A stretch of DNA of 64,000 bases. Source: Candidatus Sulfidibacterium hydrothermale. Lineage in GTDB: Bacteria > Bacteroidota > Bacteroidia > Bacteroidales > F082. The position numbers were made by a program, and so were the translations under genes. Under the pieces are notes generated by a model that ran no database searches, was not told where the DNA came from, and was given only the letters and a program-made list of their open reading frames with translations. Each line of letters opens with the position of its first letter. The first letter of the stretch is position 1. Below are positions 8,362-22,698 of this stretch, piece by piece. The stretch spans positions 1,736,001 through 1,800,000 of the forward strand of contig NZ_CP083760.1 of NCBI RefSeq assembly GCF_020149915.1, written 5' to 3'.

Positions 8362-9216
8362 CTATTCTTTTTTCATTTGTTGTCTGAGCCATTCATACCA
8401 GGCATTCATGCCTTCGCCGGTAGTAGCCGATACTTCAAAAAATTTCAGATGATGATTAACCCGCAGGGCATATTCTTTGGCTTTGGCTACGTCGAAATTG
8501 ACGTAAGGCAGTAAATCGGTTTTGTTGATGATACAGATATCGGCCGACAGGAACATGTCGGGATACTTGATGGGTTTGTCGTCGCCTTCGGTAACGCTGA
8601 TGAGTACCACCCGGCTGCTTTCGCCGAGGTCGAAGAGGGCGGGGCAGACCAGATTGCCCACGTTTTCAATCAGGACCACTGAATTTTCTTTAGGGTTCAG
8701 TTTTTTTACCGCTTTATTTACCATGTCGCTGTCGAGATGACATCCCTGGCCGGTATTGATTTGCACAACAGGAATTTTCTGTTTCTCGATGCGTTCTGCA
8801 TCGTTAAAGGTTTGCTGGTCCCCTTCGATAACGTAAAAAGGAATTTCCTGCTTGAGGTCGTTGAGTGTTTTTTCAATAAAAGTGGTTTTGCCGGATCCGG
8901 GTGAACTGACAAGGTTCAGCGCCAGAATATTCTTGGCTTCAAAATAGCCGCGGTTTCGTTCGGCCAGCAGGTTGTTGCTCTGCAGGATATCCTGTTCCAG
9001 CTCAACAACTGTTTTGGTATGGGCATGTTCGTGATGGGCATGCTCGTGATCGTGATGATGATGTCCGTGCACATGGGGATGCGCATGCGTGTGTTCATGA
9101 TCATGGTGATGATGTTCGCCGTTTTTCATCGAGATTTCTTCCCGATTTATTTCACCGGGTTTGGCGATGATGATATTTGTTTCTGTGGAATTGCCACAAC
9201 CGCATGTCATACACAT
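8362..9216 (-). CDS. hypB: Hydrogenase nickel incorporation GTPase HypB
   Basis: 284-aa GTPase that delivers nickel to the hydrogenase large subunit with HypA. The N-terminus MCMTCGC carries the high-affinity nickel CxxCGC motif. A histidine/aspartate-rich stretch at about residues 36-67 is a nickel-storage region. The GTPase domain has the P-loop SSPGSGKTT, ENVGNLVCPA and NKTDLL. It is the last gene of the hox operon, 13 bp after hypA. Confidence 0.97.
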   Translation of the reverse strand: MCMTCGCGNSTETNIIIAKPGEINREEISMKNGEHHHHDHEHTHAHPHVHGHHHHDHEHAHHEHAHTKTVVELEQDILQSNNLLAERNRGYFEAKNILALNLVSSPGSGKTTFIEKTLNDLKQEIPFYVIEGDQQTFNDAERIEKQKIPVVQINTGQGCHLDSDMVNKAVKKLNPKENSVVLIENVGNLVCPALFDLGESSRVVLISVTEGDDKPIKYPDMFLSADICIINKTDLLPYVNFDVAKAKEYALRVNHHLKFFEVSATTGEGMNAWYEWLRQQMKKE

Positions 9217-9229
9217 AATGCTGTTTTTT

Positions 9230-9577
9230 TTAATTTTTAATCACTGTCATTCTTTTAATTCTCAATTCTTTACCCGAAATAATGTCGCAAAAGGGATTCC
9301 CGCAGTCGGGACAGGGGTCGAAACTGCTTTCGGCAACGAACACTTTTCCACAGGCGGTGCATTTGGCTTTGGCCGGCGGCCGGTTGATTTTCAAGTTGGC
9401 ATTTTCCAGTGCCGTGTGGCGAGTGCCCGCATCCCAGGCAAAGTAAAATGCATCCATTTCCACGCCCGAGAGTTCGCCGATATCCAGCTCAATGGATTCC
9501 ACGGCATTGGCCTGCTGCTTTTGTCGCTCGGTTTCTGCCGTGTCCACAATGCTCATTACAATGGATAACTCATGCAT
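9230..9577 (-). CDS. hypA: Hydrogenase maturation nickel chaperone HypA
   Basis: 115-aa metallochaperone that binds Ni through the N-terminal MHE motif. The start is fixed by MHELSIVMS, the invariant HypA N-terminus; three codons upstream in the same frame begin at a TTG and would bury the Ni-binding histidine. The zinc site is formed by CTACG and CPDCG. It lies between the DHOD-like gene (11 bp) and hypB (13 bp). Confidence 0.96.
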   Translation of the reverse strand: MHELSIVMSIVDTAETERQKQQANAVESIELDIGELSGVEMDAFYFAWDAGTRHTALENANLKINRPPAKAKCTACGKVFVAESSFDPCPDCGNPFCDIISGKELRIKRMTVIKN

Positions 9578-9588
9578 TTCACACAAAG

Positions 9589-10587
9589 TTAAAAAATTTC
9601 TTCAAAATCTCTTTTCATATACTGAATACGTTCGAAACGGGCATCTGTAGTCTGGTAGTCCAGCGATTTTCCACGGAAGTCGTCCAAACACTCAAAATGA
9701 TGTTTTTTCATCCAGTTTTCCAGTCCCTCCAGTATTTTAGCGATATGGGGAATGCCGTTTTGGAAAAGGGTAGAACAGATTTCCACCGCTTTGGCTCCCA
9801 CAAGGATTTGTTTGATGAGTGCTGTATCGTAATGGATTCCCGTGGAAGCAACCAGATCGCAGGGGATGTGATGGCCGCTCAGCAGGGCAATCCACCGCAA
9901 GGGCAGACTCATCTCTTCCGGTGATGAAAAATGTTCGCGGCTAACCACTTTTAGCGTGTCGATATCGATATCGGGCCGAAAATAGCGGTTAAACAACACC
10001 AGTCCGTCCACGCCGGCATCCACCAGCCGGTTGATGATACTGCACAGATTGGTGAAGAATGGTCCCAGTTTGATGGATACCGGAATGCTGACTTCCTTTT
10101 TGACTTTTTTCAGGATCTTTACATACAGGTCTTCGATTTCGAGACTGGTCATGCTGTTGTTGAACGGAAAGATGGAAATGTTCAATTCCAGTGCATCGGC
10201 ACCGGCATTTTCTATTTCGCGTGCATATTTCGGCCAGTTGTCGGCACTCTTACAGTGAATGCTTGAGATAATCGGAACAGTATTGTCAATACTTTTGGCT
10301 GCCTGGAGAAAGTGTAAATAATGATCTAAAATAGCCTTCCGGGAGAGATTCATTACTTTTTCTTTGGCTTCTGAAAACCAATAGTATATTTCATTCTCAT
10401 TACTTTGCTTTAGTTTAGCTTCCACACTTGAATCCATTTGTTCCTCAAAAATAGATTTGAGAACAATGGCTCCGGCGCCGTAGCCAATACATTGCCGGAT
10501 CGTTTCAATGTCTCCGGTGATTCTGGAACTGCTGATAATAACGGGATTCTTAAGCTTTAATCCCATGTAAGTGGTTGAAAGATCCAT
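9589..10587 (-). CDS. Dihydroorotate dehydrogenase-like flavoprotein in hox operon
   Basis: 332 aa from MDLSTTYMGLKLKNPVI; a start nine codons upstream (MIYYPN) is possible and would lengthen the overlap with hoxW from 38 to 65 bp. The fold is a class 1 DHOD-type FMN TIM barrel: KNPVIISSS, AGAIVLKSIFEEQ, PVSIKLGPFF, GLVLFNR, ASTGIHY and GAKAVEICSTL form the expected flavin site. The class 1 active-site motif NxSCPN instead reads N-I-S-I-F-P (136-141), so the catalytic cysteine is missing. As I recall, CDD describes the DHOD-like subgroup as keeping the FMN site but lacking catalytic residues. It is probably not a pyrimidine-synthesis enzyme. Its position inside the hydrogenase operon suggests a redox or maturation role, which is inference. 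Confidence 0.85.
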   Translation of the reverse strand: MDLSTTYMGLKLKNPVIISSSRITGDIETIRQCIGYGAGAIVLKSIFEEQMDSSVEAKLKQSNENEIYYWFSEAKEKVMNLSRKAILDHYLHFLQAAKSIDNTVPIISSIHCKSADNWPKYAREIENAGADALELNISIFPFNNSMTSLEIEDLYVKILKKVKKEVSIPVSIKLGPFFTNLCSIINRLVDAGVDGLVLFNRYFRPDIDIDTLKVVSREHFSSPEEMSLPLRWIALLSGHHIPCDLVASTGIHYDTALIKQILVGAKAVEICSTLFQNGIPHIAKILEGLENWMKKHHFECLDDFRGKSLDYQTTDARFERIQYMKRDFEEIF

Positions 10588-11062
10588 GGTTTTTCGATTG
10601 GGGTAATAAATCATTTAAAATAAGTTCCCTGACCGCATCAAATCCGGCAGAGAGATTCTCTAATGCCTGATGTGTGGGCTTTTGATTGAATTGCCAGGCA
10701 TATCCACGTAAATGTAAGAGATACGTTACCGGTTTTTTTTCAAAAAGATTCTGGCAAAGGTGCAAAACGTAGGCTGGCGATACGGCGTGCATGGTGAATT
10801 CTACCTGTGTCGGAGAAGGTTTGAGCCGCGAAAGTTCATATTGCCGGATTTTTTCCTGCGAAGCATCGGCAAAAATCACGATGTCGTAATGCGACATTTT
10901 CTCTGCATCTTCAATATTCAACTGATAGTTGGTATCGACATCTATTGTATTGTCCGGAAGGTTTTCGGTAGCCCATTGTTTTATTTTTTCGGCGCATAGC
11001 ACGCCAAGGCCGTCATCTTGCCGGCCGGGGTTGCCATATCCGTAAAAAAGAATTTTACTCAT
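10550..11062 (-). CDS. hoxW: Hydrogenase maturation endopeptidase (HoxW/HyaD type)
   Basis: 170-aa protease that removes the C-terminal tail of the [NiFe] large subunit after nickel insertion. The N-terminal GYGNPGRQDDGLG matches the family motif GxGNxxxxDDGxG. The later aspartate (IFADAS) and histidine (TMHAVSP) fit the other two nickel-sensing ligands. It begins 5 bp after hoxH, its presumed substrate, and its 3' end overlaps the DHOD-like gene. Confidence 0.88.
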   Translation of the reverse strand: MSKILFYGYGNPGRQDDGLGVLCAEKIKQWATENLPDNTIDVDTNYQLNIEDAEKMSHYDIVIFADASQEKIRQYELSRLKPSPTQVEFTMHAVSPAYVLHLCQNLFEKKPVTYLLHLRGYAWQFNQKPTHQALENLSAGFDAVRELILNDLLPQSKNHGSFNHLHGIKA

Positions 11063-11067
11063 GATTG

Positions 11068-12522
11068 TCAGTCTTTTATTTTGTGATCCAGAATCTCGTC
11101 GTTTTCATTGACAAGGGTCATTTCCAGTGGCATTTGTCCCAAAGCGTGGGTAGCACAGCTCAGACAGGGGTCGTAAGCTCTGATGGCTACTTCCACAGCG
11201 TTCATCATGGGCTCGGTGATGGTTTCCTGTCCGTTCATAAAAGCATGGGCGGTGCTGGCTACGGCCCGGTTCATGGGCTCGTTGTTGTTGGTGGTCGAAA
11301 CAATCAGGTTGGCCATGGTAATCATATCGTCATCGTTAATTTTATAATGATGGAACAGCGTTCCGCGGGGTGCTTCGATGACGCCGACACCTTCGTAATG
11401 TTTGTTGCCTTTGACTACCAGATTGTCTTTTTGTAAATCCGGGTCCTGCAGCAAATCGCGAATCACTTCGGCAGCATGCAGAACTTCAATCAGTCGTGCC
11501 CAGTGATAGTGCAGGCTCATATTATTGGGCTTGCCATTGGTGTAAGCTTTGTATTCTTCAAATTCCTTTTGTGCCAGGGGGGTGGGTATAAAATCGCAGG
11601 TGTTCAGTCGTGCCAGCGGGCCTACGCGGTACCAGCCTTTTTCTTTGCCGAGGTGTTTCAGATAAGGAAATTTCATGTAACTCCAACTACGAACTTCTTC
11701 CTCGATGTAATTATAATATTCGTGGTAATCCACATCATCAAGAATCCGGTTTCCTTCGGCATCCACGGCACGCAATACGCCGTGATAAATGTCGAAAGCA
11801 CCGTCTTTTCTGACAAGACTCAGGTGGTTAGACGGAAAACGGGCGAATTCATCAACTTTAGCACGGTTTTGTTTATGGTAACTTTTGAAAAAATCCAGCG
11901 CACCGAGCGACCATTCCACCATTTTGTCGGCATTGAGCGGGTCGGGACCTTTTAGCAATTCATCGCGTTCGGTGATGCTCAGGTTTTTGTTGATGCCGCC
12001 GGGGATGGCTCCGGTACCGTGGATTTTCTTTCCGGCGGTACGCAGGATAACCTCTTGCCCGAATTTTCGCATCATCACGCCCTGCACGGCGAGCTCTTTA
12101 TTGTTCATGGCAATGCCGATGATGTTGCGAATTGCCGGGTCGCCGTCAATTCCAAAGAGAAAGTCGGGGGCACTTAAATGGAAAAAGTGCAGTACGTGCG
12201 ACTGGAAAAACTGACCGTAATGCATGAGCCGGCGCATTTTCTCTGCCACGGGCGTCAGTCCGTCGCCGTTTCCGGCGCCCACAATTACGTCCATGGCTTT
12301 GGCAGCGGCAATGTGGTGGCTGACGGGACAGATGCCGCAGAGACGTTGTACCAGAACAGGTGCTTCCCAGTAGGGGCGTCCCTGAACAAAACGTTCAAAG
12401 CCTCTGAACTCAACAATGTGTAGCCGGGAATCGATTACTTCGTGATTGTCATTCATTCTGATGGTTACTTTTCCGTGCCCTTCCACGCGGGTAACCGGTT
12501 CGATGGTTATTTTTTTTGACAT
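11068..12522 (-). CDS. hoxH: NAD-coupled [NiFe] hydrogenase large subunit
   Basis: 484-aa catalytic subunit that reversibly oxidises H2 at the NiFe(CN)2CO centre. The L1 motif is RVEGHGK (12-18) with RLCGICPVSHH (Cys62, Cys65). The L2 motif is DPCLSCATH (Cys453, Cys456, His459). The 25-residue tail after His459 is the extension removed by the HoxW-type protease, consistent with an active, maturation-dependent enzyme. The family looks like group 3 (cytosolic, bidirectional). The gene lies 12 bp after hoxY. Confidence 0.96.
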   Translation of the reverse strand: MSKKITIEPVTRVEGHGKVTIRMNDNHEVIDSRLHIVEFRGFERFVQGRPYWEAPVLVQRLCGICPVSHHIAAAKAMDVIVGAGNGDGLTPVAEKMRRLMHYGQFFQSHVLHFFHLSAPDFLFGIDGDPAIRNIIGIAMNNKELAVQGVMMRKFGQEVILRTAGKKIHGTGAIPGGINKNLSITERDELLKGPDPLNADKMVEWSLGALDFFKSYHKQNRAKVDEFARFPSNHLSLVRKDGAFDIYHGVLRAVDAEGNRILDDVDYHEYYNYIEEEVRSWSYMKFPYLKHLGKEKGWYRVGPLARLNTCDFIPTPLAQKEFEEYKAYTNGKPNNMSLHYHWARLIEVLHAAEVIRDLLQDPDLQKDNLVVKGNKHYEGVGVIEAPRGTLFHHYKINDDDMITMANLIVSTTNNNEPMNRAVASTAHAFMNGQETITEPMMNAVEVAIRAYDPCLSCATHALGQMPLEMTLVNENDEILDHKIKD

Positions 12523-12534
12523 GGTTCTTTCTGT

Positions 12535-13083
12535 TTAATCAAATTTTACAACTTCATATGGCAACTCCATAGGATTTTCTGTGACCAGTGCGTACAGTGC
12601 ATTCCAGATAAGATCGGCGCGAGGCGGACAGCCGGGAAGAAAATAATCGATTTTAACTACTTCATGACAGGTGTAAACCCGGTCAAGAATGATCGGCAAC
12701 TCTTCATCGTTAGGAATGATTTTTTCGTGATTTTCCTGCACCGTAGGGCCGTTTAAGTAGGCTTCGTTCAGGCATTCTTCAACGGAGATGCCGTTGCGCA
12801 TAGCCGGCAATCCGCCCATGATGGCGCATTCGCCAAGCGAAACCAGAATTTTGCAGTTTTCTCTGAAATATTTCAAAATTTCCACATTCTCGCTATTGCA
12901 GCACCCGCCTTCGATAATTCCGATATCCACCGGCTTGGTGAATTTTTTGATGTCGTCAATGGGTGATTTATTGAATTCTACCAGTTCAATGAGGTCCAGA
13001 ATTCTTTCGTCAATGTCAAGAAGTGACATGTGACAGCCGAAACAGCCGGCAAGTGAAGTGGTAGCAATTACTTTCTTATTCAT
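12535..13083 (-). CDS. hoxY: [NiFe] hydrogenase small subunit HoxY
   Basis: 182-aa electron-transfer subunit of group 3d type, without a Tat signal and without the medial/distal cluster domain of respiratory small subunits. The four ligands of one proximal [4Fe-4S] cluster are visible: Cys14 and Cys17 (AGCFGC), Cys86 (GECAIMGG) and Cys152 (LPGCPP). It takes electrons from HoxH and passes them to HoxU/HoxF. It is spaced 11-12 bp from both neighbours. Confidence 0.95.
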   Translation of the reverse strand: MNKKVIATTSLAGCFGCHMSLLDIDERILDLIELVEFNKSPIDDIKKFTKPVDIGIIEGGCCNSENVEILKYFRENCKILVSLGECAIMGGLPAMRNGISVEECLNEAYLNGPTVQENHEKIIPNDEELPIILDRVYTCHEVVKIDYFLPGCPPRADLIWNALYALVTENPMELPYEVVKFD

Positions 13084-13094
13084 TTTTTGCAGTT

Positions 13095-13805
13095 TTATGA
13101 TTGATTTTCAATTTCACTTCCAATGGGTTGGTTGTCGTATTTCCGGGTACCAATAGGTTGCTCAAACCCTTTTCCTTTGTAAAGAATTGAGCCTGTCGGA
13201 CAGTTTTCCATGGCTTTTTTGGCCAGCTCGTCGGGCATATCTGCACCAAGAACAGGGTCTAACACCACTTCGAGATGTTGCCCGCGATTCTTGTAGGCGA
13301 AATAATGCCGGCCTTCTTCATCGCGGATGGTTTTAATGCAGCGTTTGCACAAAATACACCGGTTTTGTTCTTTTACAATTTTCGGATTGGAGGCATCCAC
13401 TTCTTTGCGGGGAAAACTGAACGGGAATCGCGGAACCAGCATTTTAAACCGGTAAGCCAGCGCCTGTAGTTCGCAGTTGCCGCTTTTTTCGCAAGTGGGG
13501 CAGAAGTGATTTCCGCTCACAAACAGCAGTTCGACAATGCTCTTCCGTAAATCGTTGATTTCTTCCGTATTGTTTTCAATTTCCATTCCTTCACTTACCG
13601 GTGTGGTACAGGATGTCATGAACCGGTTGTTGATTTTTACGGTGCAGATGCGGCAGCATGCTTTGGGGTCGGCGCCTTCGAAATGACAGAGCGTAGGAAT
13701 GTAAATTCCGTTTTCGCGGGCGGCTTCCACAATGGTGCTGCCTTTCCGGGCGTAAATGGTTTTTCCGTCCAGCGTGATCTTTATTTTATTTTCTGTGTTT
13801 TCCAT
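13095..13805 (-). CDS. hoxU: Hydrogenase diaphorase subunit HoxU
   Basis: 236-aa NuoG-like iron-sulfur subunit. The N-terminal [2Fe-2S] ligands are Cys40, Cys51, Cys54 and Cys66. A His/Cys-ligated cluster site is at His100, Cys102, Cys105, Cys111 (CPTCEKSGNCELQ). A ferredoxin-type site is at Cys150, Cys153, Cys156 with Cys202. It wires the hydrogenase module to the FMN subunit. The translated gene is compact and lacks the molybdopterin domain of NuoG, as expected for HoxU. Confidence 0.94.
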   Translation of the reverse strand: MENTENKIKITLDGKTIYARKGSTIVEAARENGIYIPTLCHFEGADPKACCRICTVKINNRFMTSCTTPVSEGMEIENNTEEINDLRKSIVELLFVSGNHFCPTCEKSGNCELQALAYRFKMLVPRFPFSFPRKEVDASNPKIVKEQNRCILCKRCIKTIRDEEGRHYFAYKNRGQHLEVVLDPVLGADMPDELAKKAMENCPTGSILYKGKGFEQPIGTRKYDNQPIGSEIENQS

Positions 13806-13816
13806 GTTTTGGTTTT

Positions 13817-15703
13817 TTAAAAATGATGAAATACCGGTTTTTTATTTAAATATTTTCGGGAAGCTTCTGTGGCTTTTTCCAGGCTGAATCCGCTGTCGAA
13901 TTGTGTCAGGCTCTGGATTCGCTGCTCGTACAGATGCCGGAAATGGAAAATGGAAGATAAAATGGGGTTACCTGCCGTTTGTCCCAGTCCGCAGCGGCTG
14001 GCTTTCAGTATTTTTCCCCAGTTGAGCAAGTCGTAAATGTCTTGCCGGATGCCGTGCCCGTCAATAATTTTTTGCAGCTTGTTTTTCATCAGTAGCGGGA
14101 TATTACGGCAAGTGGAGCAGGATGCGCAGGATTCTTCGATGAAGAAGTTCATAAAATTCATGACCACTTCACTAAGCAAGTCACGGCTGTTGTCAAAGAT
14201 CATGATAGAACCGCCGGTGGGCAGGTCGGAATAACTCAGTTTCCGGTCGAAGAACTTTTCAGCGATCATCATGCCTGACGGTTTGTACCATTTCATCAGT
14301 TCGCTGTTGTCCATGTTGTTGACGTCTTTCATGCCGATGATCATACCGGAAGGACCGCCTACCTGGATGGCTTGTACATCTTCGGCCCCGCTCATCGCAA
14401 CAATTTCGCGTAGCGTGGTTCCCCATTCCACTTCGTAGATGCCCGGAAACCGGCAGTCGCCTGAAATACTGAGCAGCTTGGTTCCCAGTGAGTCTTTGGT
14501 GCCGAAACTGCTGTACCACGCAGCCCCGTGATGCAGGATCTTTACGGCAGTGGCCAGTGTTTCCACATTGTTGACAATCGTTGGGTAGCCGAGATAACCT
14601 TTCTCTACCGGGAAAGGCGGTTTGTCGCGTGGCTCGCCCCGTTTGCCTTCGAGCGACTCGATAAGCGCCGATTCTTCACCGCAAACATAGGCTCCGGCGC
14701 CGAGCTGAATCCGGATGTCGAAGTCAAAGCCGTCCATGCCGGCAATGCTTTCACCGAGAAAGTTTTTTTTCCGCATTTCGGTCAGTTTGCGGTTTAGAAA
14801 GTGGTACAGGTATTTGTATTCATATCGTAAATAAAGCAGTCCGATATCTGCTCCGGTGGCGTAAGCGGCGACCACCATGCCCTCGAAGATTAACTCAGGA
14901 TATTCGGTCAATAAAACGCGGTCTTTAAAAGTGCCGGGCTCGCCTTCGTCGGCATTACAGATAATTACCCGGTGTTTTCCGGCTGTCCGCCGTCCAAACC
15001 GCCATTTCAGTCCGGTGGGAAAGCCGGCTCCGCCACGTCCCCGCAGGTTGGATGCTTCTATCTCGGCAATCACTTCTTCCGGACTCATGGTTTTGAGTTT
15101 GGACGTCAGGAACGAAAAAGGCTCGTAGTCTTTTTTGAGAATGATTGATTTTTTCCGGATGTTGTTGGTTACCATTGCCCTGATATCGGGATCAGCATTG
15201 TTGCCGCTTCCGAAATCTTCGTACATGAGTTCCTCTGCGGAAAGACCTTTCCTCATATCGTCAACCAATTGTTTTACGCGGAAAGGCGTCAGATTGGTAA
15301 AAATCTTATCGTTGATGATGGCGGCCGGTTCCTGATCGTTCATGCCGATACAGGAGGTGTCGAACAAGCCGAAAAGCCCATCTTCGGAAACACTTCCGAA
15401 AGCGGTGCCGCAGTAGTATTCAAACGCTTCTTTTACCGCTGCTCTGCCCTTTAGCACGGACGTGATGCTGTTGTTCAGGTAGATGTTGTATTTGCCTTTG
15501 GGCGTGTTGGAAAAGAAATGGTAAAAAGTGGCTGTTTCCTGAACCTGGGCATAGGAAATGCCGAGCGATTCCGAGAGCTTGCGCATATCGTCTGCGCTGA
15601 CAAAGCCCTGATCTTCGTGAATGGACAAAAGGATGTCCATTAATCTGGTTTTGTCTTGATCAAATTTCGATAGAATTTGATAAATTTTTTCATCTGTTGC
15701 CAT
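13817..15703 (-). CDS. hoxF: HoxE-HoxF fusion: NADH-binding diaphorase subunit
   Basis: 628 aa; first gene of the hox operon. Residues 1-160 form a NuoE/HoxE-like domain in which three of the four [2Fe-2S] cysteines are replaced (positions aligning to Asn77, Ser82, Cys118 retained, Asn122), so it probably carries no cluster. Residues 185-628 are NuoF-like: FMN site GRGGAGFPTG (222-231), NADEGEPGTFKDR (250-262), NAD loop GAGAYVCGEESALIESLEGKRGEPR region (335-359), and [4Fe-4S] ligands Cys526, Cys529, Cys532, Cys571. It exchanges electrons with NAD(H). No separate hoxE exists nearby, consistent with the fusion. Confidence 0.95.
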   Translation of the reverse strand: MATDEKIYQILSKFDQDKTRLMDILLSIHEDQGFVSADDMRKLSESLGISYAQVQETATFYHFFSNTPKGKYNIYLNNSITSVLKGRAAVKEAFEYYCGTAFGSVSEDGLFGLFDTSCIGMNDQEPAAIINDKIFTNLTPFRVKQLVDDMRKGLSAEELMYEDFGSGNNADPDIRAMVTNNIRKKSIILKKDYEPFSFLTSKLKTMSPEEVIAEIEASNLRGRGGAGFPTGLKWRFGRRTAGKHRVIICNADEGEPGTFKDRVLLTEYPELIFEGMVVAAYATGADIGLLYLRYEYKYLYHFLNRKLTEMRKKNFLGESIAGMDGFDFDIRIQLGAGAYVCGEESALIESLEGKRGEPRDKPPFPVEKGYLGYPTIVNNVETLATAVKILHHGAAWYSSFGTKDSLGTKLLSISGDCRFPGIYEVEWGTTLREIVAMSGAEDVQAIQVGGPSGMIIGMKDVNNMDNSELMKWYKPSGMMIAEKFFDRKLSYSDLPTGGSIMIFDNSRDLLSEVVMNFMNFFIEESCASCSTCRNIPLLMKNKLQKIIDGHGIRQDIYDLLNWGKILKASRCGLGQTAGNPILSSIFHFRHLYEQRIQSLTQFDSGFSLEKATEASRKYLNKKPVFHHF

Positions 15704-15730
15704 GGATAAGATTTTTATGCTACTTTTGTA

Positions 15731-15748
15731 CTGTTAAAAACTTCACAA
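15731..15748. promoter_or_regulatory. Rex-type operator 1 (hox side)
   Basis: CTGTTAA AAAC TTCACAA: two 7-nt half-sites around a 4-nt spacer. It matches the Rex consensus TTGTGAA/TTGTTAA-N4-TTCACAA at 13 of 14 half-site positions when the two known half-site variants are allowed. It directly abuts the hox -7 box and would cover the hox transcription start, so bound Rex should repress hox. A rex gene lies 6.3 kb away in this window. Confidence 0.75.
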
Positions 15749-15756
15749 CAAAGATA
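15749..15756 (-). promoter_or_regulatory. -7 box of hox operon promoter
   Basis: The minus strand reads TATCTTTG, an exact TAnnTTTG match, 46 nt before the hoxF ATG. Rex operator 1 begins immediately downstream. A convincing -33 TTTG at the usual distance is not visible. Confidence 0.6.
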
Positions 15757-15760
15757 AAAC

Positions 15761-15768
15761 TATTTTTG
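15761..15768 (+). promoter_or_regulatory. -7 box of hypFCDE promoter
   Basis: TATTTTTG, an exact TAnnTTTG match, 52 nt before the hypF ATG. Its last three bases overlap Rex operator 2. No clear -33 box is visible. Confidence 0.55.
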
Positions 15769-15783
15769 TGAAGAGATTAACAC
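15766..15783. promoter_or_regulatory. Rex-type operator 2 (hyp side)
   Basis: TTGTGAA GAGA TTAACAC: same 7-4-7 architecture as operator 1, perfect in the left half-site and one base off TTAACAA in the right. Centre-to-centre distance to operator 1 is 35 bp. It overlaps the plus-strand -7 box and probable start of hypFCDE, so both arms of the divergon could be controlled together. Confidence 0.7.
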
Positions 15784-15820
15784 ATAACAAATTTAAAATC
15801 TTTTTAAATTAGCCGGTGAA

Positions 15821-18094
15821 ATGACCAAAACAGCTTATAAAATAGAAGTGAAAGGTTTGGTGCAGGGAGTAGGGTTTCGGCCTTTTATTTACAAACTGGC
15901 CCGGCGTCATGCCTTGCGTGGTCATGTGGAGAATAACAACAAGGGCGTGTTAATCAGGGTCGAAGGAGATGAAAAAGCGCTGCTCCGGTTTCTGCAGGAT
16001 ATCCGGGAGGAAGCACCGGCAGCATCGCAAATCAGTCGTATTGATTATGAAAAGATAAAAGCCAACGGCTTTCAGGAATTTTCGATTCGTCAGAGCCGTT
16101 CGTATTCCGACGAAGTGACCGAAGTGAGTCCCGATATTGCCGTTTGTGACGATTGCCTTCGGGACATGAAAACCCAGCCGCACCGGATTGATTATCCGTT
16201 TACCAATTGTACCCATTGCGGTCCGCGGTTCAGCATTATCAAAGATTTGCCGTACGACCGGCATCAGACCACCATGGCCCCTTTTCAGATGTGCGATGTG
16301 TGCCATGCGGAATACACGGATGTGACGGACCGTCGTTTTCATGCACAGCCGGTAGCCTGTAATCACTGTGGACCTGTATATTCGCTTCATCTGTCTTCGG
16401 GTGAAACAGAAAACGACTTTTATACCTTATTAAGTAAAACAGCAGCCTTGCTGGACGATGGCCGTATTGTAGCCCTGAAAGGGCTGGGTGGTTTTCATCT
16501 TGCCTGTAATGCGCTGGACGAAAATGCGGTACGTTTGTTAAGGCAGCGAAAAAACAGAGAAGGCAAGCCCTTTGCCGTGATGTTTTCCGATATGGCTTTG
16601 GTAAAAGAATATTTGCAGGTTTCTTCCGAAGAAGAAAGGCTGTTGCAAAGCTGGCGGCGACCCATTGTGTTGCTGCGCATTAAAAAACCATTGCCGTATC
16701 CGGTGAGCAACGGGCTGAATACAACCGGGGTGATGCTGCCGTATATGCCTTTTCATTATCAGCTTTTCGAAAAACTGAAAACGCCGGTATTGGTAATGAC
16801 CAGCGGAAACCTGTCGGATGAGCCGGTTTTGACCGATAATGCCGATGCGTTGAATAAACTGGCCCCTGTGGCCGATGCGGTGCTTACTTACAACCGCGAG
16901 ATTTATAACCGGGTGGACGATTCGGTAGCCATGGTCGTAAACCGGAAAGAACGGCTGATACGACGTTCGCGGGGGTATGCTCCGTCGTCGGTTCCGCTTT
17001 CTTTGCCTGCCGAAGGAGTTTTTGCCGCCGGCGCCGAACTGGTGAATTGCTTTGCCGTAGGAAAAGGCGACAAGGTTTTTTTAAGTCAGTATATCGGCGA
17101 CTTAAAAAATCCGGAAACCCTCGGCTTTTATGAAGAATCCTATCAGCGGTTTTGCCGGTTATTCCGGTTTAAACCTGTTCTGGCAGCTGTGGATTTGCAT
17201 CCCGATTATTATTCCACAAAGTTTGCCCAAAAAACCGGTTTGCCGTTGGAATTTGTCCAGCATCATCATGCACACATTGCTTCCTGCATGGCTGAGCATC
17301 AGCTTGATGAGCCGGTAATCGGAGTCAGCTTCGACGGTACCGGTTTGGGAACCGACGGGAAAATATGGGGCGGTGAGTTTTTGGTGTGCGACCTGCAGGA
17401 TTTCCGGCGGACGTATCATTTTGAATATGTTTTGCAGCCCGGTGGCGATGCGGTCATCCGGCAGCCCTGGCGCATGGCGCTGGCTTATCTTTACCGTTAT
17501 TTTGGAAAAGATTTTTTGACCGGACGATACAAAAAATGGTTCCCTTTTCTGGAAAAAGAGACTTTCGAACTGTTTTTGTCCATGATGGAAAGCAAGATTA
17601 ATTGTCCCGAAACGAGCAGCGCCGGCCGGTTGTTTGATGCGGTGTCTGCTTTGCTGGGTATTTGCACCCGTTCGACTTATCATGCCGAAGCCCCCATGCG
17701 TCTGGAATCGGCAGCCGACGAGCACATCTCATCGGCTTATCCGGTGGATATCCGGAACGGAGAAATCTCTTTCCGCCCTGTTTTTGAAGGATTGCTTCGG
17801 GACAGGGAAAACGGGATGCCGGTTTCGGAAATGGCCGGCAAATTTCATCAAACGGTGGTAGAAGTTATTATCGCGACAGCGAAAAAAATAGCGTCCGAAA
17901 CGGGTATCCGGAAAGTGGTCCTTTCTGGCGGGACGTTTCAAAATAGAATCGTATTGGCAAAAGCAGAAAACCGGTTGCGTGAAGCCGGCTTTGCTGTTTA
18001 CAGTCATCAGCAGGTTCCTTCCAACGACGGAGGGATTGCCCTGGGACAAATGGCGGTGGCGGCCAAAAGAAGAGTAACGAACAGTAATAATTAA
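15821..18094 (+). CDS. hypF: Carbamoyltransferase HypF
   Basis: 757-aa enzyme that uses carbamoyl phosphate and ATP to load a carbamoyl group on the HypE C-terminal cysteine for cyanide ligand synthesis. Domains in order: acylphosphatase (VKGLVQGVGFRPF, about 8-95), two zinc-finger pairs (CDDC..CTHCGPRF and CDVC..CNHCGPVY, about 108-190), a YrdC-like domain (about 200-385) and a Kae1-like domain with HHHAHIASCMAEH. First gene of the hypFCDE operon, divergent from hox. Confidence 0.96.
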   Translation: MTKTAYKIEVKGLVQGVGFRPFIYKLARRHALRGHVENNNKGVLIRVEGDEKALLRFLQDIREEAPAASQISRIDYEKIKANGFQEFSIRQSRSYSDEVTEVSPDIAVCDDCLRDMKTQPHRIDYPFTNCTHCGPRFSIIKDLPYDRHQTTMAPFQMCDVCHAEYTDVTDRRFHAQPVACNHCGPVYSLHLSSGETENDFYTLLSKTAALLDDGRIVALKGLGGFHLACNALDENAVRLLRQRKNREGKPFAVMFSDMALVKEYLQVSSEEERLLQSWRRPIVLLRIKKPLPYPVSNGLNTTGVMLPYMPFHYQLFEKLKTPVLVMTSGNLSDEPVLTDNADALNKLAPVADAVLTYNREIYNRVDDSVAMVVNRKERLIRRSRGYAPSSVPLSLPAEGVFAAGAELVNCFAVGKGDKVFLSQYIGDLKNPETLGFYEESYQRFCRLFRFKPVLAAVDLHPDYYSTKFAQKTGLPLEFVQHHHAHIASCMAEHQLDEPVIGVSFDGTGLGTDGKIWGGEFLVCDLQDFRRTYHFEYVLQPGGDAVIRQPWRMALAYLYRYFGKDFLTGRYKKWFPFLEKETFELFLSMMESKINCPETSSAGRLFDAVSALLGICTRSTYHAEAPMRLESAADEHISSAYPVDIRNGEISFRPVFEGLLRDRENGMPVSEMAGKFHQTVVEVIIATAKKIASETGIRKVVLSGGTFQNRIVLAKAENRLREAGFAVYSHQQVPSNDGGIALGQMAVAAKRRVTNSNN

Positions 18095-18105
18095 AAAAGA
18101 AAATT

Positions 18106-18375
18106 ATGTGTCTGAGTATTCCGGCAAAAATTGAAAAAATCGAAGGGGAAACAGCGGTTTGTTCCGTAGGTGGTTCCACTTATCAGGCCAGTTTAATGAT
18201 GTTGCAAACCGAAGAGCTGGCACCGGGTGATTATGTGTTGATTCATACCGGTTTCGCTATTCAGAAACTGGATAAAGAAGAAGCGGAAGCCAGCCTGAAG
18301 GCTTTTGATGAATTTAAAAAACTGAATGAAGAAATGGACCGCGAAGAACGCGAAACCAACCAACGGCTGATATGA
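18106..18375 (+). CDS. hypC: Hydrogenase assembly chaperone HypC
   Basis: 89-aa chaperone that shuttles the Fe(CN)2CO unit from HypD to HoxH. The invariant N-terminus MCLSIPAKI with Cys2 is present, and VLIHTGFAIQKLD is the conserved C-terminal motif. It follows hypF by 11 bp; its stop overlaps the hypD start (ATGA). Confidence 0.96.
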   Translation: MCLSIPAKIEKIEGETAVCSVGGSTYQASLMMLQTEELAPGDYVLIHTGFAIQKLDKEEAEASLKAFDEFKKLNEEMDREERETNQRLI

Positions 18376-19454
18376 GATATATTGATGAATTCAGAGACCG
18401 TGATACGGTACGGGCACTGGCTGCCGAAATAAAGAAAATTTCTACCCGGCCGGTAAAACTCATGGAAGTGTGCGGCGGGCATACCATGTCGATTCAAAAA
18501 TTTGGCCTTCCGGCTTTGTTGCCCGATACGGTGGAACTGATTTCGGGACCGGGATGTCCGGTGTGTGTTACCAGTCGTTCGTATATCGACAAAGCTGTGG
18601 CTTTCAGTCAGCAGAAAGATGTGATTATTACCACTTACGGCGATTTGATTCGTGTGCCCGGTTCGGAAAGTACGTTGGAAAAAGAACATGCTGCCGGAGC
18701 GGATGTCCGTGTGGTTTATTCGGTGCTGGATGCCCTGAAAATTGCCCGCGAGCAGCCCGCCAAAAAGGTAGTTTTTCTCGGGATCGGATTTGAGACGACA
18801 GCCCCCGGTACGGCCGTGGCCATTTTGCAGGCAGCCCGCGAAAAGCTGACAAACTTTTTTGTGTACAGTGCCCATAAAGTGATGCCGCCGGCCATGGCTG
18901 CGCTGATTGATGAAGGGGTGCAAATCAACGGTTACATTGGCCCCGGACATGTGAGTACGATTACCGGAAAAGGAATTTATGAAGATATCCCGAAAAAATT
19001 TGGTCTCGGTGTGGTCATCAGCGGCTTTGAACCGACCGACCTGATGCAGTCGGTTTTGATGCTGATCAGGCAGATAGAAACCGGAAAGCCGCAGGTGGAA
19101 ATTCAGTATAAACGGGCGGTAAGACCTGAAGGAAACCGGAAAGCCAAACAAATGATGAACGAAGTTTTTGAGCCCGGCGACGACTGGTGGCGGGGACTGG
19201 GCGTTCTGAAAGACAGCGGACTGAAGATCCGGCCGAAATATGCGGCTTTTGATGCGGAAAAAAATATCCGTGCCGACGGAATGGTGCCTCTGCGAGAACC
19301 CAAAGGGTGCATTTGCGGCGATATTCTGAAAGGTATCAAAAAACCGAAAGACTGCCGGTTGTTTGCCACGGTGTGTACCCCCCGCGATCCGGTGGGCAGC
19401 TGTATGGTGTCCGGCGAAGGGGCCTGTCAGGCTTATTATTTGTATAACCGGTAA
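18372..19454 (+). CDS. hypD: Hydrogenase formation scaffold HypD
   Basis: 360-aa iron-sulfur protein on which the Fe(CN)2CO group is assembled with HypC and HypE. Conserved family segments are EVCGGHTMSIQKFGL, SGPGCPVCVT, GFETTAPGTA, GPGHVSTI and the C-terminal cysteine-rich region with CICGDILKG, CRLFATVC and GSCMVSGEGACQAYY for the [4Fe-4S] cluster. Starts within the hypC stop, indicating translational coupling. Confidence 0.97.
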   Translation: MRYIDEFRDRDTVRALAAEIKKISTRPVKLMEVCGGHTMSIQKFGLPALLPDTVELISGPGCPVCVTSRSYIDKAVAFSQQKDVIITTYGDLIRVPGSESTLEKEHAAGADVRVVYSVLDALKIAREQPAKKVVFLGIGFETTAPGTAVAILQAAREKLTNFFVYSAHKVMPPAMAALIDEGVQINGYIGPGHVSTITGKGIYEDIPKKFGLGVVISGFEPTDLMQSVLMLIRQIETGKPQVEIQYKRAVRPEGNRKAKQMMNEVFEPGDDWWRGLGVLKDSGLKIRPKYAAFDAEKNIRADGMVPLREPKGCICGDILKGIKKPKDCRLFATVCTPRDPVGSCMVSGEGACQAYYLYNR

Positions 19455-19466
19455 AAAATAAATCGA

Positions 19467-20483
19467 ATGAAAGACACGAAAATATTGATGGGACACGGCA
19501 GCGGCGGTTTGATGACGCACGAACTGATAGACCGCTTGTTTGTCCGTTATTTTAACAATCCCGTGCTGCAGCAGCAGGGCGACTCAGCATTGTTGCCACT
19601 TTCCGGAAAAAATCTGGCTTTTACCACCGATTCGTTTGTGGTGGACCCGGTGTTTTTCCCGGGCGGGAATATCGGAAAACTGGCAGTGGCCGGCACGGTA
19701 AACGATCTGGCGGTTTCCGGTGCCGTGCCCCGCTATCTGAGTGTGGGTTTTATCCTTGAAGAAGGATTGATGCTGGATGAGCTGGAAGAAATTGTGAAAA
19801 CCATGGCCGAAGAAGCTGCCCGCGCCGGTGTGCTGATTGCCACGGGCGATACCAAAGTGGTGGAAAAGGGAAAATGCGACAAAATTTTCATCAACACCAG
19901 CGGCGTGGGCGAAATAAACGAACGGCGGCTTTCCATCAGTTCCGGAAAGGATATCCGGCCGGGGGATAAAATCATTATCAACGGCGGCATTGCCGAACAC
20001 GGTATGGCCATTATGACAACCCGCAACGGCATGAATATTTCTTCGCCGCTGTTGTCCGATTGTGCTTCGCTGAACGGCCTGATCTCGCATGTGTTCGAAG
20101 TATCGGAAAACATCCGTTTTATGCGCGATCCCACCCGCGGCGGACTGGCCACTGTGCTGTCGGAGTTGGTGCAGCAAAAAGATTTCGGTATCCGGATTCA
20201 GGAAGACAAACTGGTGATAAAAGATACCGTAAGAGGCATTTGCGAATTGCTGGGATTTGACCCGCTGTTTGTGGCCAACGAAGGAAAAGTGGTATTGATC
20301 GTTCCTGAAAATGAAGCCGACCGGATAGTAACCGCCATGCGGGAACATCCTTTAGGCAAAGAAACTGCTGTAATTGGTGAAATAACCGACCGGCATCCTG
20401 GCAAAGCCTGGATAGAAACCATTGTCGGCGGCGAGCGGATGCTTGATATGCTTTCAGGACAACAACTGCCGCGTATCTGCTAA
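19467..20483 (+). CDS. hypE: Hydrogenase maturation protein HypE
   Basis: 338-aa PurM-like enzyme that dehydrates the carbamoyl group to a thiocyanate on its C-terminal cysteine. The N-terminus has GHGSGG (family signature), the core has FTTDSFVVDP and RDPTRGGLA, and the protein ends PRIC with the acceptor cysteine as last residue. Last gene of the operon, 12 bp after hypD; converges with the zinc-ribbon gene 15 bp downstream. Confidence 0.97.
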   Translation: MKDTKILMGHGSGGLMTHELIDRLFVRYFNNPVLQQQGDSALLPLSGKNLAFTTDSFVVDPVFFPGGNIGKLAVAGTVNDLAVSGAVPRYLSVGFILEEGLMLDELEEIVKTMAEEAARAGVLIATGDTKVVEKGKCDKIFINTSGVGEINERRLSISSGKDIRPGDKIIINGGIAEHGMAIMTTRNGMNISSPLLSDCASLNGLISHVFEVSENIRFMRDPTRGGLATVLSELVQQKDFGIRIQEDKLVIKDTVRGICELLGFDPLFVANEGKVVLIVPENEADRIVTAMREHPLGKETAVIGEITDRHPGKAWIETIVGGERMLDMLSGQQLPRIC

Positions 20484-20498: not shown

Positions 20499-20900
20499 TT
20501 ATCCGCCGTATGCTTCATAAAATTTTTGCAATTCGGTAGCCACATCTTCAAAAGCCACATAATGGTTTGAGCAGCCGGTTCTGGAGCACAGGCTTACCCG
20601 GCCGCCGGTTTGCAGCAGCAGCGAAACCATGGGCGCATCACATATTTTACATTTTTCATGGCTGTTGAGTATTTTGTTGCAATGCGGGCAACTAAACGTT
20701 ACAATTTCTTCCTGAGCCAAAGGGACATCCGTTTTGTAATCAAAACACTCATAGTATGAGCACAAGTGAATGACGCCTCTGCTTTGCTGTGTCTGGATGT
20801 TCAACCGGATGGAAGGTTTACCATGCAGCGGAGCTTCTTTGTCCATCAATGATTTGCCGCAATGCGGACATTTTACCGCTAATGAAATGTGTTTCTTCAT
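20499..20900 (-). CDS. Small cysteine-rich zinc-ribbon protein next to hyp operon
   Basis: 133 aa, no signal peptide, not recognised as a named family. It has CPHCGKS near the N-terminus, CPHCNKIL and CKICDAP in the middle, and two cysteine pairs in parallel contexts (LCSYYECF and LCSRTGCSNHY). The two halves look like a duplicated unit: a CPHC ribbon followed by a short beta segment and a C-x5-C/C-x4-C pair. It probably binds two or more zinc ions or an iron centre. It converges on hypE, and a weak Rex-like palindrome lies 61 bp upstream, so co-regulation with the hydrogenase is possible but unproven. Confidence 0.7.
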   Translation of the reverse strand: MKKHISLAVKCPHCGKSLMDKEAPLHGKPSIRLNIQTQQSRGVIHLCSYYECFDYKTDVPLAQEEIVTFSCPHCNKILNSHEKCKICDAPMVSLLLQTGGRVSLCSRTGCSNHYVAFEDVATELQKFYEAYGG

Positions 20901-21274
20901 TTTGTTTCTCTTTTATTTTTGAACGCAATATACAATAAATACTGTGTAAAAGCAAGTTGTATGTTTAATAATTAACAGAAGTTTTTTCCGTTTTTTTCTC
21001 AACGATGGGAAAAAACGGCTGTAAAAGAAATTCAGTAAGAATCTTTTTTTAATGGATCCGCTCTCTTTTTCAGGTCAGCCGGACTACTGAAGTGTTGCGC
21101 TATTGCAGAGAAATATTATTTTTGTTGGCGTAAAGAACACATTGAACAAATTTAGTTATTTTATAATTTGTTTGTATTCAGCACGTAATGTTTTGTGCTT
21201 GGTATTTTTGTAAGTAAATCTTTCCTTCGTGGAAAGGGTGGTTTTTAATGGTTAGAAAAGAAAAAAAGGGGTTT
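20901..21274. other. Divergent intergenic region, zinc-ribbon gene to PorT-like/rex operon
   Basis: 374 bp without a gene. It holds a weak Rex-like palindrome (20961-20978), a TAnnTTTG match TATTTTTG at 21203-21210 on the plus strand suitable for the PorT-like gene, and a small hairpin CTTTCC-TTCGT-GGAAAG at 21220-21236 in the expected leader. Nothing else is recognised. Confidence 0.5.
20961..20978. promoter_or_regulatory. Weak Rex-like palindrome
   Basis: ATGTTTA ATAA TTAACAG has the 7-4-7 layout with TGTT/AACA symmetry, but only 5 of 7 and 6 of 7 matches to the TTGTTAA/TTAACAA half-sites. It is 61 bp upstream of the zinc-ribbon start and about 300 bp upstream of the PorT-like/rex operon. 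Confidence 0.3.
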
Positions 21275-22054
21275 ATGAAGAAGATATTTTTACTTGGTTT
21301 TGCAATTTTTTTATCCTTTTCATTGTTTGCCCAAAGCACTTTTCGTAACCGGCTGAGCTTTGGTGTGGAACTGGGGCCTTCATTCAGCAGTGTACGCGAT
21401 GCGGGATTGAGTAATTCCGAAGGCCGGACTGCTGTGAATGGTGGGATTTTTGCTCAATATGATATTTCAAATACTTTAAAAGTAAGTTTGGGGTTGAATT
21501 ATGACCCGCGTGGTTTTTCCACGTCATACCAGTCGCCTTATTTAATTCTTTCGGATACCGGTTATATCGGATACAACAGTTATTATGCTTACGATATGAC
21601 CTATACGATTGATTACATTACGCTTCCTTTGAATTTGACTTATTTAAGCGGCGGAGATAAATGGCGGTTGCTGGTAGAAGGCGGAGTTTATCTTTCTGTG
21701 GCGGTTACTTCGCGGGTTAAAGGTTTTAGCGGAACTTATATTGATCCGGATGATTTGCCTTATTATGGCGATTCCACTTTGACTTCCGGATATCACATGA
21801 CCCATTATGATACCTCAGCCTCTGACTTTTTTAATCCTACCGATGTCGGTTTTCATTTTGCTTTTGGCGTGATTTACCATCCGACGGCCCAATGGGCGAT
21901 TACTTTTAAACCCGGATTTAATTTTGGTGTATCAGCCATTGTTTCCAATCCGGATATTGATATGAAATGGGATCGAATTCTTAAAATAAATGTGGGAGTC
22001 ATTTATAAAATTCATCCTTTTGTTAAACCGAAGAACGAATATATTTTACAATGA
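21275..22054 (+). CDS. PorT-like outer-membrane beta-barrel protein
   Basis: 259 aa from MKKIFLLGFAIFLSFSLFAQ, a typical signal peptide; the ATG nine codons upstream (MVRKEKKGF) would only extend the n-region. The mature protein has repeated beta strands and the segments FGVELGPSFSSV, LKVSLGLNYDPRGFS and IDYITLPLNLTY, typical of the PorT / outer-membrane beta-barrel family (PF13568-like) in Bacteroidota. The specific role is unknown. Its stop codon overlaps the rex start by 4 bp, an unusual coupling of a barrel and a cytoplasmic repressor. Confidence 0.82.
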   Translation: MKKIFLLGFAIFLSFSLFAQSTFRNRLSFGVELGPSFSSVRDAGLSNSEGRTAVNGGIFAQYDISNTLKVSLGLNYDPRGFSTSYQSPYLILSDTGYIGYNSYYAYDMTYTIDYITLPLNLTYLSGGDKWRLLVEGGVYLSVAVTSRVKGFSGTYIDPDDLPYYGDSTLTSGYHMTHYDTSASDFFNPTDVGFHFAFGVIYHPTAQWAITFKPGFNFGVSAIVSNPDIDMKWDRILKINVGVIYKIHPFVKPKNEYILQ

Positions 22055-22698
22055 TAAATCATTTACCAGCCAATACCGTCGAACGTTTAAGTAATTATCG
22101 GCGTACTCTTCGTTTATTGTTAAGCGAAGAAAAAACCCACATTCATTCGCACCAATTGGCACATTTACTGAAAATCAATCCGGCTCATGTGCGTCGTGAT
22201 TTGATGCTCATTGGCTTTTCCGGAGATATCCATAAAGGATACAATATCGCCAAATTGATTGAGAGTATTGGAGAAGCGATTGATTGCGTACATGTTCAGA
22301 AAGTGGCTTTTGTCGGTGTGGGTGACTTGGGACGTGCTGTGGCTGACTTTTTTAATAATCAACAAACCAAACTGAAAGTAGCCGCTACTTTCAGGATCGG
22401 TCAGGAACCGGGAATACAATATCCCGATGTAAAATGCTATAATATTTCTCGCATGAAAGAGATTATGCGTCGCGAGAATATTGAATTATGCGTTCTTGCG
22501 GTTCCCAATGATTTTGTTCCTGAAATTTCCCGGATTATAGTAGAATCCGGGGTAAAAGGAATCCTTAATTTCACTTCATCCCGGCTGAAAGTTCCCAAAG
22601 AAATTTATGTGGAACAGTATGATATGATCAGTAAGCTGGAAAAACTGGCCTATTTTACCAATAAAGATTCGTGTCCGGGAGGATCATCTGTTTCGTAA
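22051..22698 (+). CDS. rex: Redox-sensing transcriptional repressor Rex
   Basis: 215-aa dimeric repressor that leaves DNA when NADH/NAD+ rises. Residues 8-75 form the winged helix (HSHQLAHLLKINPAHVRRDL, corresponding to the Rex recognition helix region). The Rossmann domain begins with VAFVGVGDLGRAVADFF. The conserved C-terminal GVKGILNFTSSRLKVPKEI and swapped helix region follow. Two strong Rex-type operators lie in the hox/hyp divergent promoter, so the hydrogenase is a likely target. Translationally coupled to the barrel gene upstream. Confidence 0.93.
   Translation: MINHLPANTVERLSNYRRTLRLLLSEEKTHIHSHQLAHLLKINPAHVRRDLMLIGFSGDIHKGYNIAKLIESIGEAIDCVHVQKVAFVGVGDLGRAVADFFNNQQTKLKVAATFRIGQEPGIQYPDVKCYNISRMKEIMRRENIELCVLAVPNDFVPEISRIIVESGVKGILNFTSSRLKVPKEIYVEQYDMISKLEKLAYFTNKDSCPGGSSVS

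Follow-up and report, generated by a model that had tools for sequence, protein, structure and literature searches.

Gene organization of the hox/hyp locus

The stretch of DNA analysed here (the window) is 64,000 nucleotides long and corresponds to positions 1736001 to 1800000 of a 3.27-Mb genome assembled in a single contig. On its minus strand, hoxF (13817 to 15703), in which Pfam and family searches recognized a HoxE-like domain fused to HoxF, heads a row that continues with hoxU (13095 to 13805; family search), hoxY and hoxH for the [NiFe] small and large subunits (12535 to 13083 and 11068 to 12522, respectively), a hydrogenase maturation protease gene (10550 to 11062; TIGR00072, 49.1 bits with a cut-off of 47.45), a gene for a dihydroorotate-dehydrogenase-like protein of the PRK07565 family (9589 to 10614; family search), hypA (9230 to 9586; family search) and hypB (8362 to 9216; named by sequence reading). 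On the plus strand, hypF (15821 to 18094; family search) is followed by hypC, hypD and hypE (18106 to 20483; named by sequence reading), whose relatives occur in the same order at many loci. Downstream lie a gene for a zinc-ribbon-like protein (20499 to 20900), relatives of which adjoin hyp genes or sit upstream of hoxF at many loci, and a frame (21248 to 22054) that on sequence reading resembles an outer-membrane beta-barrel; the latter overlaps the start of the next gene by 4 bp, and the two are therefore possibly co-transcribed. This next gene, on the plus strand at 22051 to 22698, is the rex gene that an earlier, sequence-only reading of the locus had noticed near hox/hyp, and family search, alignment and tree identify its product as a Rex paralogue with an altered NAD(H) pocket, here called Rex1.

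The HoxFU NADH module combined with HoxYH assigns the enzyme to the group 3d NAD-linked [NiFe] hydrogenases, closest to the NAD-reducing hydrogenase, with Hox subunit scores that stay below the NCBIfam equivalog cut-offs. The best solved relative of both HoxY (180 bits) and HoxH (541 bits) is 5xf9, which we take to be the group 3d NAD-reducing hydrogenase of Hydrogenophilus thermoluteolus. An extra ferredoxin domain in HoxF is the criterion for a bifurcating hydrogenase; since Pfam shows no such domain in the HoxF of the window, a bifurcating enzyme was set aside.

The 117 bp between hoxF and hypF (15704 to 15820) hold two predicted Rex-type operators of the 7-4-7 layout, both palindromes without strand: operator 1 (CTGTTAAAAACTTCACAA; CTGTTAA-AAAC-TTCACAA) at 15731 to 15748 and operator 2 (TTGTGAAGAGATTAACAC; TTGTGAA-GAGA-TTAACAC) at 15766 to 15783, 35 bp apart from start to start. 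Each differs in one position from TTGTKAA-N4-TTMACAA and in two from the canonical TTGTGAA-N4-TTCACAA. Bacteroidetes promoters carry a -7 box of the form TAnnTTTG, and the candidate hox box, TATCTTTG, abuts operator 1 on the minus strand (15749 to 15756), while the plus-strand box TATTTTTG (15761 to 15768) overlaps operator 2 by 3 nt. Palindromes, spacing, gap and the exact boxes on the two strands thus lie where the sequence-only reading had placed them. Two further elements had escaped it, namely a second plus-strand box, TACTTTTG (15721 to 15728), 2 bp from operator 1, and a third palindrome without strand (15789 to 15811), whose centre lies 52 nt before operator 1 in the hoxF orientation.

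Conservation of the operators and promoter boxes

For the comparison, we searched for hoxF in 173 genomes belonging to the family, of which 163 gave a match and 30 loci were given, and in named genomes, from which the best 80 of 191 relatives were kept; the loci with the closest hoxF among the named genomes belong to MAGs that carry a Bacteroidales or Bacteroidetes label. The resulting 111 sequences (110 loci and the window) were reduced to 108 upstream regions by removal of 3 with too little upstream DNA, and 96 of these, each 250 bp long except one of 163 bp (L123), are distinct. A site with at most two mismatches occurs in 83 of the 96 regions, compared with 5 of 96 for the reversed pattern and 51 of 1920 dinucleotide shuffles, so that the palindromes are indeed found upstream of orthologous hox operons; the best site has no mismatch in 37 regions, one in 33, two in 13 and at least three in 13.

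Pairs of sites numbered 46 by a loose pairing rule, and by a strict one (each site with at most three mismatches) the loci divide into 40 with two sites and 43 with a single site. The spacing is 33 to 36 bp in 39 of the 40 strict pairs. At 36 of the 40 two-site loci, hypF or hypC is divergent from hoxF, compared with 1 of the 43 single-site loci, a difference to which kinship contributes. Of 21 single-site genomes examined, only 3 carry a Rex-like site in the 450 bp before hypF, a count that is limited by the possibility that another gene precedes hypF in its row. Joint control of hox and hyp, as proposed from the window, would thus be lineage-specific, and as a general rule it is limited by these 3 of 21 genomes.

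The hox -7 box is conserved. Preceding or slightly overlapping the hox operator across loci, it is exact in 67 of the 83 site-bearing loci (4.5% at random upstream places) and has at most one mismatch in all 83 (18% at random places); furthermore, a TTG starts 22, 23 or 27 nt upstream of it in 11, 16 and 15 of the 83 loci, respectively, with a background of 1.9 per position. The plus-strand box overlapping operator 2, which had been taken for the hyp -7 box, is poorly conserved, being exact in 2 of the 40 two-site loci, with a baseline of 9.8%; allowing one mismatch raises this to 16 of the 40 (baseline 22.5%, p about 0.01). The hyp box is better sought in TACTTTTG: next to operator 1, an exact box in the hyp direction occurs in 16 of the 40 two-site loci (baseline 3.9%), in 14 of them 2 nt off the operator, and is missing in the other 24; it occurs in none of the 43 single-site loci (baseline 1.0%). 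Since this box is conserved on the far side of operator 1 from the hox box, operator 1 is placed between two facing -7 boxes. The start sites predicted for both promoters fall inside operator 1, and operator 2 would span the -33 region of hox and lie downstream of the hyp start.

One alternative is that Rex acts at the hox promoter alone, with operator 2 working for hox and any control of hyp being incidental. The predicted hox -33 region does lie under operator 2, four of the 40 two-site loci (L058, L065, L071 and L114) have neither hypF nor hypC directly divergent from hoxF, and the scarcity of sites before hypF in single-site genomes fits as well. However, the association of paired sites with a divergent hypF or hypC, to which kinship contributes, and the restriction of the exact hyp box beside operator 1 to two-site loci speak against it, and we regard control of hox alone as unlikely.

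Candidate regulators of the control region

Which protein reads the operators was addressed by a Rex search in 48 of the 80 named-locus genomes, which are drafts. A Rex match of at least 165 bits was obtained in 34 of 35 genomes with a hox site versus 4 of 13 without one (Fisher 4e-6, kinship ignored); the 48 genomes are not independent, because losses of the site and of rex are shared among related genomes. Every one of the 35 site-bearing genomes has some Rex match, one of them weak (L115, 89 bits), as expected if the site needs rex. The 13 genomes without a hox site comprise 4 with a strong Rex (L091, L123, L124 and L127), 4 with a weak, divergent Rex (L073, L096, L116 and L120) and 5 with no Rex match (L107, L111, L118, L125 and L129). 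In the first set, no hox site could be detected in L091 and L124; the sequence available upstream in L123 is limited to 163 bp, and L127 carries a site with three mismatches at the expected place.

Palindromes of the same kind also precede rex genes. Among 22 Rex2-type genes scanned (that is, genes resembling the second rex of the genome, described below), 16 have one within 82 bp upstream (score of at least 12; some rows are near-copies) and 6 do not; the palindrome before the genome's own rex2 scores 18.7 and ends 3 bp before the start codon. In L073, L096, L116 and L120, hoxF is closely preceded on its own strand by the divergent rex, and the palindromes before this rex score 16.5 (311 bp away), 12.5 and 7.5 in the first three, whereas the value for L120, -8.8, is by score no match. 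In L115, rex lies about 5 kb from hoxF on the other strand behind a perfect palindrome (20.9). No site precedes the Rex2-type rex found upstream of hoxF in L114, L121 and L124, nor rex1 in the window or in five relatives (6 of 6 loci).

An alternative is that the palindromes are CRP/FNR-family sites and that hox and hyp answer to a CRP- or FNR-like protein. Sites of that family are of the TGTGA-N6-TCACA type, and TGTKA-N6-TMACA presumably fits a CRP-type site as well; the half-sites of the Rex and CRP consensuses overlap, and the genome itself has two CRP-type matches above the cut-off and one below. However, the five genomes lacking both a Rex match and the site still carry 4 to 9 CRP/FNR matches each above the cut-off, so that occurrence of the site does not follow the CRP/FNR genes in these five, and on this co-occurrence we rejected a CRP/FNR protein as the binder. 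The palindromes before rex genes argue in the same direction, as do the near-invariant TG/CA positions and the choice of G or T at position 5, which agree with several published Rex sites of Thermoanaerobacterium saccharolyticum. We therefore consider a CRP/FNR regulator very unlikely.

The genome-wide motif scan proposed with the sequence-only reading gave 21 places within one mismatch of TTGTKAANNNNTTMACAA, compared with 5 for the reversed control. Both operators included, 12 of these sites are intergenic; another 8 fall within reading frames, and the remaining one overlaps the end of a gene, in a survey in which reading frames were chosen by length and several gene names stay below NCBIfam equivalog cut-offs or belong to genes cut by the locus end. 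Intergenic sites precede a phosphate-butyryltransferase-like (ptb-like) gene and the phosphate acetyltransferase gene pta, genes for malic enzyme, the methylmalonyl-CoA mutase small subunit and a CoA-disulfide-reductase-like protein, and genes for a sigma-54-type regulator and an RpoD-like sigma factor, and it is plausible that they outline a fermentation regulon. Two PRK07565 genes are present in the genome, the one in the hox row and another (L008, 381 to 1379) behind its own intergenic Rex-like site. A further intergenic pair, 34 bp apart, stands before nikR and a TonB-type receptor gene (genome positions 1125186 to 1125237; L009 and L014, 1501 to 1518), which links predicted Rex control with nickel supply. 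Thus, conservation, co-occurrence with rex, the palindromes before rex genes and the other sites of the genome support Rex operators at the hox promoter, as originally proposed, and Rex is most likely the binder of both operators.

The third palindrome has the consensus AATTTAWAA-WYA-TTMTAAATTT over 76 sequences. Scored on the same loci from which the pattern was drawn, TTTANAANNNTTNTAAA is matched with at most one mismatch in 69 of 83 and with at most two in 77 of 83 (7 and 149 of 1660 base shuffles, respectively), and its centre precedes the hox operator by 49 to 55 nt in 71 of 77 loci. Of 125 strong matches in 1.9 Mb of fetched DNA, much of it from around hoxF, 110 are at hoxF (counted by eye, both strands). 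L127 carries the element. No strong match was seen in the hoxF-upstream regions of the five genomes without Rex and of the four loci headed by a divergent rex, and in L073 one occurs further upstream, before its rex. Within the genome itself the scan returned 18 matches versus 10 for the reversed control, so that places other than hoxF are not established; some of these matches are near genes that on sequence reading are indolepyruvate:ferredoxin-oxidoreductase-like, acyl-CoA-dehydrogenase-like and others.

A 7-1-7 box of the Fur/PerR-like type can presumably be recognized in the core of this element, and a search of the genome gave one Fur-family match. Of 30 feoB loci, 24 were scannable; their best score, 13.7, stays below the lowest value at hox, 15.8, so that Fur as the binder is unsupported. 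NikR, considered because of the site pair before its gene, was set aside likewise, no match of at least 17 appearing among those listed for nikR loci. The third palindrome points to an undescribed hydrogenase regulator.

The genome encodes two Rex proteins, Rex1 of the window and Rex2 (genome position 575766), which are 41% identical. Rex1 belongs by sequence to the Rex family, with a DNA-binding N terminus and a Rossmann-type domain; it exceeds the cut-offs of NF003995 (167 bits; cut-off, 126) and NF003996 (143 bits; cut-off, 138) and stays below others (e.g., NF003989, 146 of 177). Its clade comprises 12 rows with a support of 96/97, and long branches are flagged by the program.

In Rex of Thermotoga maritima, which shares the fold family of Rex1 and Rex2, Asn92, Ile93, Asp115 and Lys120 are described as holding the ADP part of NAD+, with Tyr100 and Asp191 acting at the nicotinamide end (PMC8836258). 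With this numbering, Rex2-type proteins keep Asp115 in 25 of 25 rows, Lys120 in 24, Asn92 in 23, Tyr100 in 22 and Asp191 in 24. Like T. maritima Rex, the Rex2 of our genome has Tyr100, Asp115 and Lys120, and it differs in carrying Asn at position 191 (1 of the 25 Rex2-type rows) and Asp at position 92 (2 of 25). Different from T. maritima Rex, Rex1 lacks the equivalents of Asp115 and Lys120, both of which are replaced in all 12 members of its clade: position 115 is Arg in 10, Asn in 1 and Val in 1, position 120 is Pro in 11 and Ala in 1, and Asn92 has become Asp in 11 and Glu in 1. Asp191 is kept in 12 of 12 and Tyr100 in 9 of 12, with Phe in the window copy. Of the four solved chains aligned, three have Asp at the place of the Rex1 Arg, and T. 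maritima has a gap there; the pairing depends on the alignment, because the Rex1 loop is one residue shorter.

The sequence-only reading had made Rex1, as the neighbouring gene, the NADH-responsive regulator of hox and hyp. A dedicated sensor of this kind would agree with the position of Rex1 within 7 kb of hoxF on the same contig in 13 of the 27 genomes with a Rex1-like match of at least 250 bits (counted by eye; contig breaks hide linkage in draft genomes), with the recognition helix VRRDLMLIG shared with Rex2 and with the retention of Asp191 and, mostly, Tyr100. On the other hand, the replaced pocket residues, to which the window copy adds Phe for Tyr100, do not support NADH sensing by Rex1; 12 two-site draft genomes show Rex2-type matches only, without Rex1; in a further genome (G146), Rex1 occurs without a full-length match to hoxF; and rex1 has no site before it at the six loci named above. 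The assignment is thus unsupported in the form proposed: Rex1, a divergent paralogue, is unlikely to be the dedicated NADH sensor, and the canonical Rex2 is more likely the main one. Since the recognition helices are nearly identical, Rex1 probably reads operators 1 and 2 as well, but would respond to a different signal or to none.

Linkage between Rex and hydrogenase genes is recurrent, as besides Rex1 near hoxF another Rex, in which position 100 is Phe and Asp115 and Lys120 are kept, is encoded divergently to hypF. This arrangement occurs in 8 of 21 single-site genomes (L223, L231 to L236 and L239), in 3 of them with a Rex-like site in between. It is possible to hypothesize, tentatively and at rather less than even probability, that Rex1 represents a hydrogenase-linked clade in which the change from Asp to Arg at the end of strand beta-2 has retuned the protein from NAD(H) to NADP(H) or made it deaf to NADH, and which shares its operators with the canonical Rex; in that case two nucleotide pools would be integrated at hox, together with the action of a further regulator at the third palindrome. 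For comparison, Rex of Streptococcus agalactiae binds NADPH with an affinity some 400-fold below that for NADH (PMC8376106), and a limited open-licence search gave no natural NADP(H)-directed or ligand-insensitive Rex in titles and abstract starts. If this reading of the paralogue is true, Rex1 would be such a Rex.

Proposed circuit and comparison with known systems

The control region between hoxF and hypF is very probably Rex-bound. We consider it likely, with good confidence, that operators 1 and 2 are Rex sites through which facing hox and hyp promoters are repressed, and that a rise of NADH frees Rex and allows expression of the hydrogenase and its maturation genes, with Rex2 as the main sensor. 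Because operator 1 is contiguous with the hox -7 box and lies 2 bp from the hyp box, a Rex bound there would block both promoters, and operator 2, which extends over the predicted -33 region of hox and the first part of the hyp leader, would strengthen the repression. High NADH derepresses Rex targets in other bacteria; here, when the NADH/NAD+ ratio rises, Rex would leave, the NAD-linked [NiFe] hydrogenase and its maturation proteins would be made, and the cell could dispose of electrons as H2, if the enzyme works in this direction. As both operators are most likely landing sites of Rex, these uncultured Bacteroidales probably make hydrogenase mainly when NADH accumulates, as is thought for some unrelated bacteria. 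The locus thus offers a testable redox switch for H2 metabolism in uncultured anaerobic Bacteroidales, and the predicted regulon also takes in nickel regulation (nikR) and acid-forming fermentation genes.

In a literature search conducted mostly by titles and abstract starts, we found no paper joining Rex and a Hox hydrogenase in Bacteroidetes; the word Rex does not occur in PMC3878776, and in PMC12578642 it is only an author's name. Among solved structures, HoxH and HoxY resemble most the NAD-reducing hydrogenase 5xf9, a likeness that concerns these two subunits only, the HoxF of our genome carrying the fused HoxE-like domain.

The closest regulatory parallels come from Firmicutes. In T. saccharolyticum, a putative Rex site, TTGTTAAATAATAAACAA, is reported before ech-hypABFCDE, two putative sites lie upstream of adhE, and hydG is a further predicted target (PMC5886521). 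As in our locus, a predicted Rex site is thus found at a [NiFe] hydrogenase with hyp genes; however, different from that single co-directional operon with an Ech-type enzyme, the locus studied here combines an NAD-linked Hox hydrogenase, divergent hyp genes and two operators nested with -7 boxes in a member of the Bacteroidales. In Caldicellulosiruptor bescii, gel shifts with Rex are reported at hydrogenase structural genes and at the maturation gene hydG, and rex itself belongs to the Rex regulon (PMC6391272); the targets there include an [FeFe] maturation gene and Ech, and the parts of that source considered here describe neither a Rex paralogue nor a third element. Therefore, as far as these sources go, Rex control of a [NiFe] hydrogenase with its hyp genes is known as a prediction in one Firmicute, with gel-shift support in another (PMC5886521, PMC6391272), while the Bacteroidales setting and the operator arrangement are new, and the altered extra Rex copy and the third conserved site look new.
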